Part shown: positions 897 to 40,302 of the stretch, piece after piece
Layout of the letters: each line of letters opens with the position of its first letter
Position numbering within the stretch: position 1 is the first letter of the stretch
IMG/VR virus record: IMGVR_UViG_3300040781_000203
Coordinates: 1 to 40,491 of that record
Direction: 5' to 3' (one strand)
Length of the DNA: 40,491 bases
DNA from: a virus
The notes under the pieces: model-generated
Told to the model about the DNA's origin: nothing
The model's input: only the letters and a program-made list of their open reading frames with translations
Database searches by the model: none
Program-made: the position numbers and the translations under genes

Positions 897-967
897 ATGT
901 TCTTTGACAATTTGGATTGATTTTATTGTTTGAGGCGTTACCCGTAATTAAAAAAAGGGGTAATGTT

Positions 968-1339
968 ATGACAAACAATAAAAAGATAATAATCAAAGGT
1001 GGGAAACTGCCTAAGGATTATGTTAGCCCAGAGTTTTTATTGGATATCTCACTTGATAACGTGCCACAAAGTACGATTGAAAAGTGGATATACGCTGAGA
1101 GGAAGATCGCATTTCAACGTATTAGGGAGTTCATGTCTCGAGATGAAATAGAGAGCATGATAAAAGATGCACCAAAAAACGAAAATGGTGTGCCAGTAGT
1201 AACCATCCATGCCTTAAAATGTGGCAGTAAAATTGAAACCACACAAAAGATCGAAGAAAGTTTCATATCTGCAGCAACGCAGATGTCGAAACAACGGCGG
1301 CTTGAGCTCATCAAGCAGCTTGAAGAATTAACTAATTAA
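968..1339 (+). CDS. First early protein, unknown function
   Basis: A 123-aa soluble protein of unknown function. I chose the ATG at 968 (MTNNKKIIIKGG) because GGGG at 957-960 lies seven bases upstream; an in-frame ATG at 917 has no ribosome site. It is helical and charged, with segments such as STIEKWIYAERKIAFQRI and a Lys/Arg/Glu-rich C-terminus (SKQRRLELIKQLEEL). It is the first gene behind P1, a position typical of host-takeover or regulatory proteins, but no domain was recognised. Its base composition is somewhat less AT-rich than the small genes after it. Confidence 0.75.
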   Translation: MTNNKKIIIKGGKLPKDYVSPEFLLDISLDNVPQSTIEKWIYAERKIAFQRIREFMSRDEIESMIKDAPKNENGVPVVTIHALKCGSKIETTQKIEESFISAATQMSKQRRLELIKQLEELTN

Positions 1340-1382
1340 CTTTTAACTTTTGGGTAACGTTTCAAATAATAAAATCAATCAA

Positions 1383-7235: not shown

Positions 7236-8162
7236 ATGATTAAAAAGAGTGAAACTTGGGATATACAAGACTCAAGTAAGATACAAAATTTTATGGACTG
7301 TCAAAGAAGTTATTTTTACAGATATATTTTAGGTTGGCAAAGTGAATATCCTAATAACCATCTTGTCTTTGGTGAGGCTATTCATTTAGCTCTTGAATAT
7401 TTATTATTAAATGACTATTCAACAAATTCTATTGCTAAAGCTATGGATTTATTTTTACTTAAATATAGAGAATATTTTGATGAGGGAACAGATGAATTAT
7501 TCTCCCCTAAAACTCCTGCTCGAGTAGTAGATTTACTTATAGAATATTGTGAGAAGTATAAAAATGATAAACATGATTTTGATGTTTTATATACTGAAGT
7601 TGCAGGGACTGTTTCATTATCTGAAGATAGAGCTATTGCATTTCGTCAGGATGCAATATGTAGAGGTGAAGAAGGAATCTTTTCACTGGAACACAAAACG
7701 AAAGGCGGTAGTATTGATTCAAGATGGCAAAATCAGTGGTATTTAAAAACTCAAATTGGGGCATATACTCATGTTCTTAATTGCTTATACCCTGATGAAA
7801 ATATCTATGGAGTAAAGATTAATGGGTTAGGAATTTTAAAAACTAAATTTTCATTCGAGAGAATTCCAGTAATAAAAACTAACAAAAGTATGAAAGTTTG
7901 GCTCTGGAATACATTGTATTGGTTAGACCAAATTTATTGGAATATAGATTTATTGCTGAATAATTGCAAAGAAAGTGATTCAGTAATGATGGCTTTTCCA
8001 CTAAATACGGAGTCGTGTAATAAATACTTTGGCTGTGTCTATAAAGATTTCTGTCATGCTTGGGCTAATCCATTAAGGAGAATTGATGAAGTACCTCCAG
8101 GATTTAAAATTGAGTATTGGAATCCTTTAGAAAAAGAGGCTCGACATAAGTTTGAAATTTAA
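7236..8162 (+). CDS. PD-(D/E)XK nuclease, Cas4/RecB-like, with likely Fe-S cluster
   Basis: A 308-aa predicted exonuclease for recombination or replication. The catalytic set includes GEAIHLALE (motif with His, ~46-54), RQDAI (Asp ~139), SLEHKTKG (Glu and Lys of E-x-K, ~153-155) and a Gln/Tyr helix (TQIGAYTHVL). One Cys near the N-terminus (MDCQRSYFYRY, Cys22) and three at the C-terminus (CNKYFGCVYKDFC, ~261-273) match the four-Cys 4Fe-4S arrangement of Cas4 and AddB. No CRISPR is present, so it is a stand-alone phage nuclease. It probably works with the Sak4-like ATPase and SSB nearby. Confidence 0.85.
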   Translation: MIKKSETWDIQDSSKIQNFMDCQRSYFYRYILGWQSEYPNNHLVFGEAIHLALEYLLLNDYSTNSIAKAMDLFLLKYREYFDEGTDELFSPKTPARVVDLLIEYCEKYKNDKHDFDVLYTEVAGTVSLSEDRAIAFRQDAICRGEEGIFSLEHKTKGGSIDSRWQNQWYLKTQIGAYTHVLNCLYPDENIYGVKINGLGILKTKFSFERIPVIKTNKSMKVWLWNTLYWLDQIYWNIDLLLNNCKESDSVMMAFPLNTESCNKYFGCVYKDFCHAWANPLRRIDEVPPGFKIEYWNPLEKEARHKFEI

Positions 8163-8182
8163 TTTAAAAAATAAGATATAAT
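8152..8182 (+). promoter_or_regulatory. Possible promoter before the structured RNA
   Basis: TTGAAA (8152-8157), a 19-nt spacer and a perfect TATAAT (8177-8182). The predicted start is near 8189, ten bases before the RNA's outer stem begins. The long spacer lowers confidence. Confidence 0.4.
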
Positions 8183-8188
8183 AAAAAA

Positions 8189-8425
8189 AAAGAAGGATGT
8201 TATGGGGTTGTCCGAGTGGCACATCTTTCCCAAGAAGAAATTCTAAGTAGGGCACGAAAAGAATTATTAATCTTGGTTGCAGGAAATGAGCATTATCACT
8301 GAAAAGGGAGTAGCCATCCCCAGTTGTGGAAACCTTGTGGAGTATGAGGCATCAGAAACACAGAACCACAAATGTGATTAGCAGAATGTGTAAAAGATGT
8401 GTCACACGGACAGCCTCATAACTAC
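8189..8425 (+). ncRNA. Candidate structured RNA/riboswitch with 27-position closing helix
   Basis: This ~235-nt noncoding stretch is visibly richer in G+C than its neighbours. Bases 8199-8225 pair with 8396-8422: 23 Watson-Crick, three G/U and one A/A mismatch. Inside, 8230-8235 pairs with 8271-8276 (CCAAGA/TCTTGG), 8239-8244 with 8260-8265 (AATTCT/AGAATT) and 8306-8309 with 8317-8320. The segment 8413-8420 can instead pair perfectly with 8343-8350 (TATGAGGC/GCCTCATA), giving a pseudoknot or alternative state. The 3' strand ends nine bases before the ribosome site of the gene at 8444. It matches no RNA family I recognise. The pairings are seen; the function is inferred. Confidence 0.65.
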
Positions 8426-8443
8426 AATATAAAGGAGAGTAAA

Positions 8444-8710
8444 ATGGATACAAGTAGAACAACAGGTCAAGTAATGAGTAAAATATTATCAACTCAAGAT
8501 GTTACACAAATACTTCTTGAGAAAGTAACTGAGATGGAAAATATCTTATCTATTATACTAAGAGAATTAGACCCTGATACATCATGTGAAAAATATAGTG
8601 TTGAACCATCATCATTAGTAAAGGTTGCAAGTGATATTAATAAAATAGAAGCAGATATAAAAACAGCGATAATCCATTTGGAAGATATTATGAGTAGGAT
8701 TGAACTATAA
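8444..8710 (+). CDS. Small helical protein behind the structured RNA
   Basis: An 88-aa protein. The ATG at 8444 is chosen because AAGGAG (8432-8437) lies six bases upstream; an in-frame ATG at 8399 falls inside the RNA element and has no ribosome site. It is predicted to be two or three long amphipathic helices (VTEMENILSIILRELD and SDINKIEADIKTAIIHLEDI), likely coiled coil. Function unknown. If the upstream RNA is a switch, this gene and those after it are its targets. Confidence 0.7.
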   Translation: MDTSRTTGQVMSKILSTQDVTQILLEKVTEMENILSIILRELDPDTSCEKYSVEPSSLVKVASDINKIEADIKTAIIHLEDIMSRIEL

Positions 8711-11393: not shown

Positions 11394-12716
11394 ATGAAAA
11401 ATATAGAGCTTAAAATAGTTTCACCTTCTGATATATGGAGTTCAGAAAGATGTCGTAAAGATTTAGGGGATATATCTGAATTAGTTCACTCATTTAAAAG
11501 TTGTGGAATAATAGAACCTCTCGCTGTTAATTCATGTTTAGGTCCTAATAATGAACCTTATAAACTTCTTGCTGGTGGTAGAAGACTTGAAGCTATTAAT
11601 GTTGCAGGAATAGAAGAAGTTCCAGTTAGAATTTACACCGAAGAACTTACAGAATACTTAATGAAGAAAATTGAATTAGAAGAAAATTTAATTAGAAAGA
11701 ATTTAACGTATATAGAAGATTGTAATCTAAAGAGTGAACTTCATAACTTACAAGTGAAAGAGAATGGAATAAAAGTAGCAAAAACTATTGATGCTGCAGG
11801 TTGGTCTCTTAGAGATACAGCAAGACTATTAAATAAAGACCATAAAGGTGTTATAGATGATATAAACTTAGCAAAAAAGATGGATGAATTTCCACAACTT
11901 GATTGGGAAGGATGTAAGAATAAAAGTGAAGCTAAAAAGATGTTTAGTAAATTTGAAGAGCGGATAGTTAGAGCCAACCTCTCTGAAAGGTCTGATAAAT
12001 TATTAGGAAAGTCAGCAAAAAATCTAGTTAAATCTTACCAAGTAGGAGATTTTTTTGAGCGAGTTAAAGATATCCCTGATAAAAGTATAGATTTTGTTGA
12101 GGTTGACCCACCTTATGGGATTGACTTAAATAAAATAAAGAGAGATTTTAAAAGTAATTACTCTCAATCATATAATGAAGTAAATGAGAATGAATATTTA
12201 GAATTTTTAACTAAAACTATAAATGAATGTTATAGAGTAATGTCTAATAATTCTTGGTTAATATTTTGGTTTGCTCCTGAGCCTTGGATAGATCCTATTT
12301 ATCAAATTCTTACTAATGCAGGATTTCAAACTAGACGTCAATGCGGAATTTGGGCTAAGCCTATGGGTCAGACTATGAATCCAGATAGATATTTTGGAAG
12401 TTGTTATGAGATGTTTTTTTATGCTCGTAAAGGAGATGCAGTTATAAATTTAGATAAACGAGGGAGAAATAATATATTCTCATATAATCCCGTCTCACCT
12501 AAAGAAAAGATTCACCCTACCGAAAGGCCTATTGATTTAATGCTTGAGTTACTCAGTGTTTTTGTATGGGAAGGGTCTCGAGTATTAGTTCCTTTTGCTG
12601 GGTCTGGCGTCACTCTTAAAGCAGCATTTCAATTAAAAATGTTTCCTATAGGTTATGATTTATCTCAAGAGTATAAAGATAGTTTTACGGCTAAAATACT
12701 AAGTCAAGATGTTTAA
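11394..12716 (+). CDS. ParB-domain / DNA adenine methyltransferase fusion
   Basis: A 440-aa two-domain protein. Residues ~1-110 are a ParB/Srx-like N-terminal domain (AGGRRLEAINVAGIEEVPVR). A linker helix region with an HTH-like segment follows (SLRDTARLLNKDH, ~135-150). Residues ~215-435 are a class-beta N6-adenine methyltransferase: motif IV DPPYGID (~238-244) precedes motif I (VPFAGSGVT, ~399), with HPTERP before it for SAM binding. It probably protects phage DNA from host restriction or marks it. ParB-methyltransferase fusions are known in phages and mobile elements. The target sequence cannot be read from the gene. Confidence 0.9.
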   Translation: MKNIELKIVSPSDIWSSERCRKDLGDISELVHSFKSCGIIEPLAVNSCLGPNNEPYKLLAGGRRLEAINVAGIEEVPVRIYTEELTEYLMKKIELEENLIRKNLTYIEDCNLKSELHNLQVKENGIKVAKTIDAAGWSLRDTARLLNKDHKGVIDDINLAKKMDEFPQLDWEGCKNKSEAKKMFSKFEERIVRANLSERSDKLLGKSAKNLVKSYQVGDFFERVKDIPDKSIDFVEVDPPYGIDLNKIKRDFKSNYSQSYNEVNENEYLEFLTKTINECYRVMSNNSWLIFWFAPEPWIDPIYQILTNAGFQTRRQCGIWAKPMGQTMNPDRYFGSCYEMFFYARKGDAVINLDKRGRNNIFSYNPVSPKEKIHPTERPIDLMLELLSVFVWEGSRVLVPFAGSGVTLKAAFQLKMFPIGYDLSQEYKDSFTAKILSQDV

Positions 12717-12744: not shown

Positions 12745-15201
12745 ATGAATAAAAGAGCTACTTTTGTGCCCTCTATAGGGGATATAAATAGTAATATCAT
12801 CTTAGTAGGCGACCAACCAAATAAGTTAGATGTCTATTCACGCAAACCTTTTGTAAGTCCTATAGGTGCGGAGTTAGATAATTGTTTAAATATAGCAAAA
12901 ATTTCAAGACTTCAGTGTTATATTACTAACGTAATAAAAGATTTAGATAACCCTATGGAATATTATATTAAATTAGGTAAGACAAATAATATAATATCTG
13001 AGGATGGTCAGGTTTATATAGATGAACTTAAAGCAGAGTTATCTAAATCTCAAGCTAATATAATTGTAGCTATTGGGGATATACCACTTTATGTACTTAC
13101 GAATAGAAAAGGAATTATGAAATGGAGAGGTTCAGTTCTTGAATCTACTTTACTCCCTGGAAGAAAGGTAATTCCTATTGCTCACCCATCTACTATTCTT
13201 CGGCCTAAATGTATCTATTTGAATAAGAGATTAATAATTGCGGATTTAGTTAAAGTAAATGAAGAATCTGCATTTCCTGAAATTAGACAGGCGTATAGAG
13301 ATATTAAAATTGAGCCTACATATTATGAAACTATAATGTTTTTAAAAGAATGCATTAGACAAGGATTAGAAGGAAAATATATAAACTTTGATATTGAGGT
13401 CTATCATAATGAAATATCATGTATTAGTTTTGCATATAGTGAATTTCATACTCTTTCAGTCCCATTCTTAAATTCCTATGGGGATTATTTCCCCATAGAA
13501 CAAGAAATAGAAATATGGAAACTTATAGCAGAGCTTCTTGAAAATAAAGATATTATAAAATCTAATCAAAATATAGGTTTTGATAATGCAGTTCTTCTTT
13601 CATTAAACGGAATTAAAACTCATAATGTTGTTGATACTATGATTAACCAAAAAATTCTCTATCCAGATTATCCTGCTGGATTAGATTTTATTACATCTAT
13701 GTATACAGACGTTCCTTATTATAAAGATGATGGAAAGATATGGTTTAAAGTAGGTGGAACGTGGCCTACATTATGGCACTATAATGGCCTTGATAGTGTT
13801 GTATGTCTTGCTGCATTACCTAAACAAGAAGAAGATTTAAGAAAACAGGGGAATATTAAAACTGCTATTAGACAAACAAATATAGTTGAACCTCTTGTAT
13901 ATATGATGTGTAAAGGAATTAAAGTAGATATAAATGAAATGAAAAAAAGTAAAATTGAATTAGAGGAAAAATTAACAAACTTACAAAAAGAGTTAAATGA
14001 AAAAGCCGATTTTGAATTAAATCCTAATTCACCTAAACAACTTATAAATTACTTCTACACCCATCTCGGCCATAAACCTTATTTAAAGAAAGGTAAAATT
14101 ACTACAGATGATACAGCATTAATTAGATTATTAAGAAAAGGAGTTAAAGAGGCTGCTATAATTAAAAATATGAGAACAACTCGAAAAATTCTTTCTAATT
14201 ATTTAAACACAGATAAAATAGATAAAGATAATAGAATTCGTTGTTCTTACAATCCTGTAGGAACTGTTACAGGTAGAATAAGTTCTAGTAGAAATATATT
14301 CGGAACAGGCGGAAACTTACAAAATTATCCTCATCATATACTAAAATTTTTAACTCCTGATGATGGCTATGTTTTCTATTCTTTTGATTTATCTCAGGCT
14401 GAAAATAGAATAGTCGCATATGTAGGTAGAATTCCTAGAATGATGGATGCGTTTAAAAATAATAAAGATGTTCATAGTTTAACAGCTTCTTTAATATTTA
14501 ATAAATCTGTAGATGAAATATCAGATGTTGATGGAAGTTCATCACTTGGAGGTGGATTACATTCAGAGAGATTCTGGGGAAAGAAAACTAATCATGAGTT
14601 AAATTATGATCTCGGATACAAAGCATTTGCACTTCAGATGGAAATTCCAGAGAGTGAAGCTAAGTGGATAGTTAATCGTTATCATTCTATATACCCAGAA
14701 ATAAGAGGAAATTACCATCATCTAATTAAAATTCGTTTAGCTAAAGATAGAACTATTTTAAATCTATTTAATCGAAAGAGATTATTTTTAGATGCTTGGG
14801 GAGACGATTTATTTAAGAAGGCTTATGCTCAAATACCTCAATCAACTGTAGCGGATAAGATTAATGAACATGGATTATCTTATATTTACTTTAATCAAGA
14901 TAAATTTAAGGATGTTGAACTATTAATTCAAGTACACGATAGTGTAGGATTTCAAATTCCTCTCACTACTCCCTGGTCAAAGCATGCTGAAATGCTTTTA
15001 GATATTAAGAAAAGTTTAGAAACTCCTCTCATATGGAATGATGTTGAGTTTACTATCCCTGCTGATTTATTTATGGGAATTAACTTATTTAAAGAAGATG
15101 GAAAGGAGTTAAAACATAATAATATACCTAATTCAATTAGTAAATTTGCAGAGAAATTAGAAACTACTTACAATGAAATTACTATGAAAGGAAGTGTATA
15201 A
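12745..15201 (+). CDS. DNA polymerase A with N-terminal uracil-DNA-glycosylase-like domain
   Basis: An 818-aa replicative polymerase. Residues 1-~175 resemble a family-4-type uracil-DNA glycosylase fold (IILVGDQPNKLD, then AHPSTILRPK), fused upstream of a 3'-5' exonuclease: DIE at ~216-218, NQNIGFD at ~273-279, YNGLD at ~345-349. The polymerase palm/fingers have motif A SFDLSQAE (~546-553), motif B RFWGKKTNHELNYDLG (~608-623) and motif C VHDS (~730). No 5' nuclease domain. A dispersed palindrome sits in frame at ~244-251, encoding SYGDYFPIE in an exonuclease loop. Whether the glycosylase-like part is active is unknown; its catalytic residues are not clearly conserved. Confidence 0.92.
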   Translation: MNKRATFVPSIGDINSNIILVGDQPNKLDVYSRKPFVSPIGAELDNCLNIAKISRLQCYITNVIKDLDNPMEYYIKLGKTNNIISEDGQVYIDELKAELSKSQANIIVAIGDIPLYVLTNRKGIMKWRGSVLESTLLPGRKVIPIAHPSTILRPKCIYLNKRLIIADLVKVNEESAFPEIRQAYRDIKIEPTYYETIMFLKECIRQGLEGKYINFDIEVYHNEISCISFAYSEFHTLSVPFLNSYGDYFPIEQEIEIWKLIAELLENKDIIKSNQNIGFDNAVLLSLNGIKTHNVVDTMINQKILYPDYPAGLDFITSMYTDVPYYKDDGKIWFKVGGTWPTLWHYNGLDSVVCLAALPKQEEDLRKQGNIKTAIRQTNIVEPLVYMMCKGIKVDINEMKKSKIELEEKLTNLQKELNEKADFELNPNSPKQLINYFYTHLGHKPYLKKGKITTDDTALIRLLRKGVKEAAIIKNMRTTRKILSNYLNTDKIDKDNRIRCSYNPVGTVTGRISSSRNIFGTGGNLQNYPHHILKFLTPDDGYVFYSFDLSQAENRIVAYVGRIPRMMDAFKNNKDVHSLTASLIFNKSVDEISDVDGSSSLGGGLHSERFWGKKTNHELNYDLGYKAFALQMEIPESEAKWIVNRYHSIYPEIRGNYHHLIKIRLAKDRTILNLFNRKRLFLDAWGDDLFKKAYAQIPQSTVADKINEHGLSYIYFNQDKFKDVELLIQVHDSVGFQIPLTTPWSKHAEMLLDIKKSLETPLIWNDVEFTIPADLFMGINLFKEDGKELKHNNIPNSISKFAEKLETTYNEITMKGSV
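13476..13498 (+). repeat. Dispersed palindrome copy inside the polymerase gene
   Basis: CTATGGGG, seven-base AT-rich centre, CCCCATAG: a perfect palindrome in frame within the exonuclease domain, encoding SYGDYFPIE. Confidence 0.85.
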
Positions 15202-38752: not shown

Positions 38753-39871
38753 TCATGCTCCTTGCATCAGCAATCTATAATAATAACCCGCCATTACTGT
38801 TCCTGACGGTCTCAACTCCTCACTCCCATACGTAAACAACGTATCCCAGCAGCTATTGTAATCCGCCTTATTCCATGCCGCTGAACGGGCTATGTTTGAA
38901 ATTCTGACTTCACTAAAAATAGAGTTAGCTTTATAATACCAAATACTACTAAAACCTAATCTACCTATTTGTTGTTGGTACACATCAGTTTTAGGTGTTT
39001 TGGCTGATAAATCTCCGCTGGTTTTATCTAACGCACCTTGAATAAATATTTTTAAATGCGTGCCATCAAATGTTCCAACGCACATATTATGAGCGGTGAG
39101 TGGAATAGTAGCAACGCTTCGTATATAGTTATTACCGCCAGCAGTGTCCTTCATATTTACTTGGATAACTTTTGAAGTAGCCAACTGGATAGCATAATTG
39201 AAATTATCAATATCTCCATTAGTTAGCCATCGTTCATTATTTGAACCTCCATCTACTTGTCTATATACTATCAGAGATTGAGTCCATGTTGTAAGTGCTA
39301 ACCCTGTACCGCACTGGATATAATCATTACTACCATCAAAATCCTGCCCTTTATGAATTTTACCATTAGCCTCTATCGGCTCATTAGCTGCTTTTTTAGT
39401 ACCATCCTGACTATTACTGGTACTGTCTGTAATAGTAGAGGTAGTGGTATCCTTCATGTGATGAACCATTTTGAAATTACTATCCCACACATTCTCGGCT
39501 GGTGTATCTCCTGTGTCACCTACATATGAGGTGTTATCTAATTGAGCAGAGTCATAATAAATATAAAATACCTGGTCAACACTTGAGGACATAGAGGGGC
39601 ACTTTACCCACAGGTAGGCTGTCTCAGTGGCATCATCCCAGTTATCTATTTCACAATAGCACTCAGTAATTTCATCTGACTTGGTTATTGCTATCTTTTT
39701 ACGGTTAGCATCACTGGTTAATTCATCGAATATCGCTGATATATCAGCACTGGTTATACCTGATGACGTAGAGACCTTAAGCAGGACAGGAAAATCTGTC
39801 AGGTCTGAGTCAACCAGTGTATGGTCTGCTGTGATAGATATCCGTTTTGCCCATGTGCCGAGCCATGCCAT
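38753..39871 (-). CDS. DUF2341/LamG-domain protein, candidate receptor-binding protein
   Basis: A 372-aa protein. The N-terminal ~115 residues look like DUF2341 (KRISITADHTLVDSDLTDFP; VFYIYYDSAQLDN). Residues ~130-350 look like a LamG/concanavalin-like beta-sandwich (GQDFDGSNDYIQCG; MCVGTFDGTHLKIFIQG), ending SEVRISNIARSAAWNKADYN. Such proteins bind surface glycans, so a fibre or adhesin role is likely. ATG 39871 overlaps the previous stop (TGATG). It lies in a GC-richer block, possibly acquired. Confidence 0.8.
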   Translation of the reverse strand: MAWLGTWAKRISITADHTLVDSDLTDFPVLLKVSTSSGITSADISAIFDELTSDANRKKIAITKSDEITECYCEIDNWDDATETAYLWVKCPSMSSSVDQVFYIYYDSAQLDNTSYVGDTGDTPAENVWDSNFKMVHHMKDTTTSTITDSTSNSQDGTKKAANEPIEANGKIHKGQDFDGSNDYIQCGTGLALTTWTQSLIVYRQVDGGSNNERWLTNGDIDNFNYAIQLATSKVIQVNMKDTAGGNNYIRSVATIPLTAHNMCVGTFDGTHLKIFIQGALDKTSGDLSAKTPKTDVYQQQIGRLGFSSIWYYKANSIFSEVRISNIARSAAWNKADYNSCWDTLFTYGSEELRPSGTVMAGYYYRLLMQGA

Positions 39872-40302
39872 CACACAATTTCCTTAATTGTAACTACATC
39901 ATTAATTAACTTCACCAAGAAACGCTTCTCAACTATCTGGCCGTTTATCTCTGCATATTTTTTTACTACTGCAAATTGCCTATCTTCCTCGCATTTTTCA
40001 ACATCTATATTTTCGTGTGTGTCAGCGTACTTGTTAACCTTTTCAGTGAAGCTTAAAATCTTATTTGTGATGGCTACTGGGATTTTATCCTGATAGTATG
40101 CAGCCTCCGTTGGCAGTCCCTCATCAACAACATAAAAGGAAACATTTCTGTATGTTGCCACAGAGCCGCTTTGGAGTTCTCTTATATTCTGGATATACCA
40201 CTTCCCACCATCCTGTTTCACTTCTTGCAATGTGGCATCACCATTAATGGAATCCACAAAATCTTTACTTTTTAAATCTTGGATTAATTCTTGTTTGTTC
40301 AT
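39871..40302 (-). CDS. Conserved-looking phage protein, fibre module
   Basis: A 143-aa mixed alpha/beta protein (SKDFVDSINGDATLQEVKQD; WYIQNIRELQSGSVATYRNV; C-terminal FLVKLINDVVTIKEIV). No domain recognised. Ribosome site GGGAGGA. Its start overlaps the stop of the membrane protein (ATGA). GC-richer, like its neighbours, and probably part of the same acquired block. Confidence 0.7.
   Translation of the reverse strand: MNKQELIQDLKSKDFVDSINGDATLQEVKQDGGKWYIQNIRELQSGSVATYRNVSFYVVDEGLPTEAAYYQDKIPVAITNKILSFTEKVNKYADTHENIDVEKCEEDRQFAVVKKYAEINGQIVEKRFLVKLINDVVTIKEIV

Follow-up and report, generated by a model that had tools for sequence, protein, structure and literature searches.

What is the long, self-complementary stretch that lies between two early genes of an uncultured phage, and does it act as RNA? 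The window analysed here, 40,491 nucleotides (positions 1 to 40,491 of the virus record IMGVR_UViG_3300040781_000203), comes from a tailed phage that encodes terminase, portal and capsid proteins; its closest named relative at the DNA polymerase, Desulfofustis phage LS06-2018-MD01, is 50% identical. The polymerase is of family A and carries an N-terminal uracil-DNA-glycosylase-like domain (12745-15201). The element sits in the early operon between a gene for a PD-(D/E)XK nuclease (7236-8162) and a small gene (8444-8710), with a gene for a Sak4-like ATPase downstream and two small ORFs among its other neighbours; the products of the 8444 and 8749 genes matched no known families. A reading made from the sequence only had called the stretch noncoding and, indeed, no reading frame of at least 50 codons runs across 8189-8425.

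That sequence-only reading had paired the ends of the element over 27 positions (23 Watson-Crick, 3 G-U, 1 A/A), far beyond chance. The count is right and the helix exists, but it runs a little further: the 27 positions are the outer part of a 30-position helix with 26 Watson-Crick pairs, 3 G-U and 1 A/A (Table 1). The excess over chance was upheld both by shuffling and by simulation: the RNA of 8189-8425 has an MFE of -77.2 kcal/mol compared with a shuffle mean of -52.9 (sd 4.6; z -5.26), none of 200 shuffles reached the native fold energy, and 470 kb of simulated sequence with matching dinucleotide composition yielded no inverted repeat of comparable strength. Taken as a duplex by itself, the helix is estimated at about -46.6 kcal/mol, the outer ten pairs accounting for -12.4. 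On the transcribed strand its departures from Watson-Crick pairing are three G-U, no A-C and one A/A, a 3:0 ratio of G-U to A-C that is not significant on its own (one-sided p 0.125). The element also stands out by composition, as had been claimed, with 42.9% GC against 31.4% for the window.

Nearly all of this excess structure is contributed by the one closing helix, because the 164-nt interior alone folds like shuffled sequence (z +0.25; 175 of 300 shuffles fold equally well). The complex fold implied by the earlier reading was thus not borne out, and a riboswitch-like structured core besides the closing stem is absent by this comparison. The element is therefore a clamp rather than a riboswitch-like fold.

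Table 1. Features of the element, of the clamp around gene 968-1339 and of the dispersed palindrome (window coordinates).
Feature	Position	Strand	Basis
boxA-like TTCTTTGACAA upstream of the gene-968 clamp	900..910	+	motif search
5' arm of the clamp around gene 968-1339	915..954	+	inverted-repeat scan
Early gene inside the clamp, no assigned function	968..1339	+	ORF; protein searches
3' arm of the clamp around gene 968-1339	1341..1380	+	inverted-repeat scan
5' arm of the 30-position closing helix	8199..8228	+	pairing scan
14-codon ORF, ribosome-site-like AGAAGGA just outside the helix (speculative)	8202..8246	+	sequence; codon score
Looped-out interior, structure no greater than shuffles	8229..8392	+	z +0.25
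Doubtful 31-codon ORF within the loop, ending 11 nt upstream of the 3' arm	8286..8381	+	ORF scan; codon score
TATGAGGC, alternative 8-bp partner of 8413-8420	8343..8350	+	shuffle test
3' arm of the 30-position closing helix	8393..8422	+	pairing scan
AAAGGAG outside the helix, ribosome site of the following gene (8444-8710)	8431..8437	+	sequence
Palindrome CTWTGGGGA(A/T-rich)TCCCCAWAG	2156, 4943, 10544, 13476, 19389, 25229, 28988, 33266, 37312, 40074		

Helices of this kind recur in the phage group. A scan in which G-U and A-C departures counted equally detected three further strong inverted repeats in the window (915-954/1341-1380, 1720-1755/1834-1869 and 2225-2271/2519-2565), and similar ones occur in related records. 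Twelve records (470 kb) held 29 of such strength, against none in the dinucleotide-matched simulation. These repeats fall into two classes, one that brackets genes and a second with balanced departures. The gene-bracketing class comprises 19 units in 14 records, under a definition drawn up after the first examples, which was checked out of sample by the added records and L152 only. In each unit a leader-trailer helix of 22-33 Watson-Crick pairs surrounds one whole small gene (47-176 codons), with the 5' arm upstream of the ribosome site. The gene's stop codon precedes the 3' arm by 1-30 nt (by 111 in one case), and the ribosome site of the next gene often comes directly after that arm. The clearest member in the window is 915-1380, where 33 Watson-Crick pairs bracket gene 968-1339; no g968-type protein was found among named phages. 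Two related records carry two or three consecutive units, each enclosing a different small gene (G026 50021-51266 and G030 45754-46605, transcript-strand coordinates).

The departures from Watson-Crick pairing separate the two classes. On the transcript strand the 19 gene-bracketing units have 60 G-U to 10 A-C (p 8e-10; 50:8 without near-duplicates), counts that treat related records as partly independent and take the transcript to run in the orientation of the early genes. For the second class (2225-2565 in the window, with counterparts in 16 other records) the ratio is 37:41 (Fisher p 9e-7 between the classes), which provides an internal control against mutational strand bias: the gene-bracketing class has been kept as paired RNA, and the second class looks like a DNA-level feature. 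The arms of the gene-bracketing units are unrelated in sequence between most genomes. The pair G008 and L152, whose genes are 74% identical, shows how they change: of 26 pairs, 15 are unchanged, six altered on one side, four compensatory and one broken in one of the two. L152, which came from a protein search rather than from its repeat, carries the predicted helix; L149 also has the helix, but is a near copy of G012.

Seven of the 19 units, 915-1380 of the window included, have a boxA-like sequence 4-15 nt before the 5' arm, CTTTGAYAA in six of them and CTTTTACAA in the seventh; the frequency of the motif is 0.028 per kb on the + strand. CTTTGAYAA matches boxA, the antitermination signal in the leaders of bacterial rRNA (TGCTCTTTAACA in E. 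coli). No such sequence occurs in the 70 nt upstream of the element.

Several further repeats were noted. The second class, found beside the early region both in the window and in 16 related records (for example L130 3991-4311 and L176 1422-1669), often carries ACCCC/GGGGT in its arms, and is perhaps a replication origin or a cruciform. The repeat at 1720-1869 is a non-coding clamp with a 78-nt loop (32 Watson-Crick, 3 G-U, 1 A-C). A direct repeat, TTATTATTTAGTTA..TACGTAGTGA.AAATTCAA, occurs at 1382-1420, before gene 1429, and at 1687-1723, before the 1720 clamp. The palindrome listed in Table 1 is dispersed in about ten copies a few kb apart, some of them within genes, and in eight copies in the relative G008; these are possibly partition-like sites for a ParB-like protein encoded at 11394-12716.

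Does the element belong to the gene-bracketing class? The class was delimited by at least 22 Watson-Crick pairs, about 170-900 nt enclosed, and an ORF coverage of at least 0.7 with a ribosome site. With 26 Watson-Crick pairs and its 164-nt interior, the element lies at the small end, and its span of 224 nt is just under that of the smallest known units (four, of 238-272 nt and 47-57 codons). It resembles the class in the length of the helix and in a ribosome site right after the 3' arm; its wobbles, all G-U on the transcript strand, are at 3:0 too few to decide by themselves; and the stop codon of its 31-codon ORF falls inside the class range. No whole gene was found inside it, the longest ORF having 31-34 codons, a coverage of 0.62 and a poor ribosome site. 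The element is located mid-operon, without a convincing gene and, as most units, without boxA. Judged by these likenesses, it possibly represents a small, boxA-less member of the class, with the 31-codon ORF as its possible gene. Our best reading of the element, at about an even chance, is a small clamp of leader-trailer type within the early transcript, functioning in processing or protection.

No homologue of the element itself was found in more than 1 Mb of related records or in the other collections searched, by methods that all detect close homologues only. A blastn search against phages and plasmids returned only a 43-nt chance match; among viral contigs, exact patterns gave 28 chance matches to the core of an arm, none of them with the second arm, and an interior 20-mer had no match; and a single-sequence covariance model found no homologue in the related loci, 36 viral records, 6 MAGs and 398 genomes of one phylum. 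The window, the element included, matches no Rfam family at the gathering cut-off, and at a relaxed threshold the best matches (E 3-8) were all implausible. The element is missing from L002/G001 and L003, which are the nearest relatives at 70-79% protein identity, and the interval between the nuclease and Sak4 genes varies in related loci from nothing to about 2.1 kb, making it a variable insertion site.

Known identities were also tried. ARAGORN detected neither tRNA nor tmRNA, in agreement with the earlier reading, and these were dropped, as were apparent resemblances of the 5' arm (GTCCGAGTGG) to tRNA-Ser and to stems of Y RNA, for which no match was found. A retron msr-msd was rejected for want of an adjacent reverse transcriptase, the neighbours being the nuclease, the two small ORFs and the Sak4-like ATPase, and a type I toxin mRNA for want of a short hydrophobic toxin ORF, both small ORFs being hydrophilic and without homologue. 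Two inverted repeats of similar span in relatives (G007 465-678, also L137, and G008 39865-40078) were discarded as homologues, since they lie inside a 77-codon signal-peptide gene. The ends of that gene form a 26-position helix, in which nearly all departures are G-U on the mRNA strand.

The main rival to a clamp acting in RNA is a mobile DNA element of MITE type that landed in the variable site, with the helix arms as its 30-bp terminal inverted repeats and the RNA helix as a by-product. The GC content unlike that of the genome, the plain interior and the absence of the element from close relatives at that site all fit such an origin. However, no target-site duplication or matching direct repeat was found at the borders, no further copy was found in the window or the viral contigs, and the wobble-type departures are all G-U on the transcript strand, so that we regard a mobile element as unlikely. 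A closed mRNA for a micro-protein, encoded by either small ORF and shut until trimmed or translated in the manner of hok or aapA, appears more doubtful still. The geometry of the 31-codon ORF does resemble that of the gene-bracketing units, and the 14-codon ORF has a plausible ribosome site at some distance before it, from which translation would melt the 5' arm. Yet an ATG ORF of the 31-codon length arises in 11% of shuffles (6% with the same stop position), its ribosome site is badly spaced, the codon scores are low, and neither peptide is hydrophobic or has a homologue.

We consider it least probable, indeed quite improbable, that the locus is a separate structured small RNA or a cis-regulatory switch of the 8444 gene, in which the outer stem would alternate with a pairing to 8343-8350. 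The alternative partner named by the sequence-only reading does exist: TATGAGGC and GCCTCATA (8413-8420) can form eight base pairs without a mismatch (P about 0.009 in shuffles, post hoc), the -11.9 kcal/mol of this pairing is about equal to the outer ten pairs, and the ribosome site begins 9 nt past the 3' arm. This pairing, however, competes with only the outer third of a helix of about -47 kcal/mol, and when pseudoknots are disallowed, forcing it carries a penalty of about 27 kcal/mol. Given this difference in stability, a switch in which the entire helix opens is unlikely, and the ribosome site is part of neither pairing, which leaves the proposed switch unsupported. A pseudoknot that opens only the outer ten pairs would be possible in such energy estimates, and nothing favours it. 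As to a separate RNA, the reported TATAAT box is present (8177-8182), but no -35 hexamer lies at 16-18 nt from it and no terminator was found for the element, so a transcript of its own is not backed. Of that interpretation, then, an RNA-level closing helix outside any Rfam family stands, and the switch does not.

If the element is a clamp in the early transcript, the 3' arm, once transcribed, would pair with the 5' arm and loop out a 164-nt segment that lies between the genes for the nuclease and for the 8444 product. By analogy with known systems, host RNase III would then cut the roughly 30-bp duplex, or the duplex would protect RNA ends, and the clamped segment and the flanking messages would become separate, stabilised pieces. 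The segment may carry the 31-codon ORF or serve as a spacer only. Translation of the 14-codon ORF could offer a route to opening the clamp. A processing or protection role, and the action of RNase III or host Nus factors on these phage RNAs, are suggested by the same analogy.

The closest parallel is the precursor of 16S rRNA in enterobacteria, where boxA lies 18-19 nt before boxC, the pairing partner of the trailer, and active 30S subunits require more than 17 bp of leader-trailer helix (PMC10250234). In both cases the two flanks of a segment pair into a helix of about 30 bp, a boxA-like motif precedes the 5' arm (in the seven phage units), and the flanking sequence diverges while pairing is retained. 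In contrast to pre-16S rRNA, the phage units enclose protein genes, and processing and NusB binding would apply to them only by analogy; the element itself has no boxA and loops out a segment without a clear gene. The ends of a message also pair in the icaR mRNA of Staphylococcus aureus, where the 5'-3' UTR pairing yields an RNase III substrate (PMC3868564), a fate that is putative in the phage. There, a UCCCCUG motif covers the ribosome site, whereas the 22-33 bp of the phage helices leave it free in the loop. The hok/aapA type I toxin mRNAs (PMC6733600) are likewise short messages closed by end pairing, with at most a short ORF in the element, which differs from them in having no hydrophobic peptide, no sequestered ribosome site and no known antisense RNA.

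Leader-trailer helices of rRNA and 5'-3' pairing in a few single mRNAs (icaR, aapA/hok) are, thus, already known. In the literature searched we found no phage described whose consecutive early protein genes are enclosed by long, covarying RNA helices, some of them behind a boxA-like signal. We tentatively propose, with a probability somewhat below even, that this phage group packages its early protein genes like rRNA precursors, in some cases with a boxA-like signal followed by a leader-trailer helix for each gene. Selection would maintain the pairing of the helix even as its sequence turns over entirely, and the arrangement would let the phages exploit antitermination and processing by the host; the element would then be one of its small members, placed mid-operon. 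Taken alone, the element is a modest, unreplicated curiosity; seen alongside the gene-bracketing units it fits into a wider mRNA architecture. If true, this would be a new layer of phage mRNA organization and a natural system for roles of leader-trailer helices beyond ribosome assembly, which may include RNase III processing, protection of RNA ends, and pairing aided by a leader tethered to RNA polymerase.
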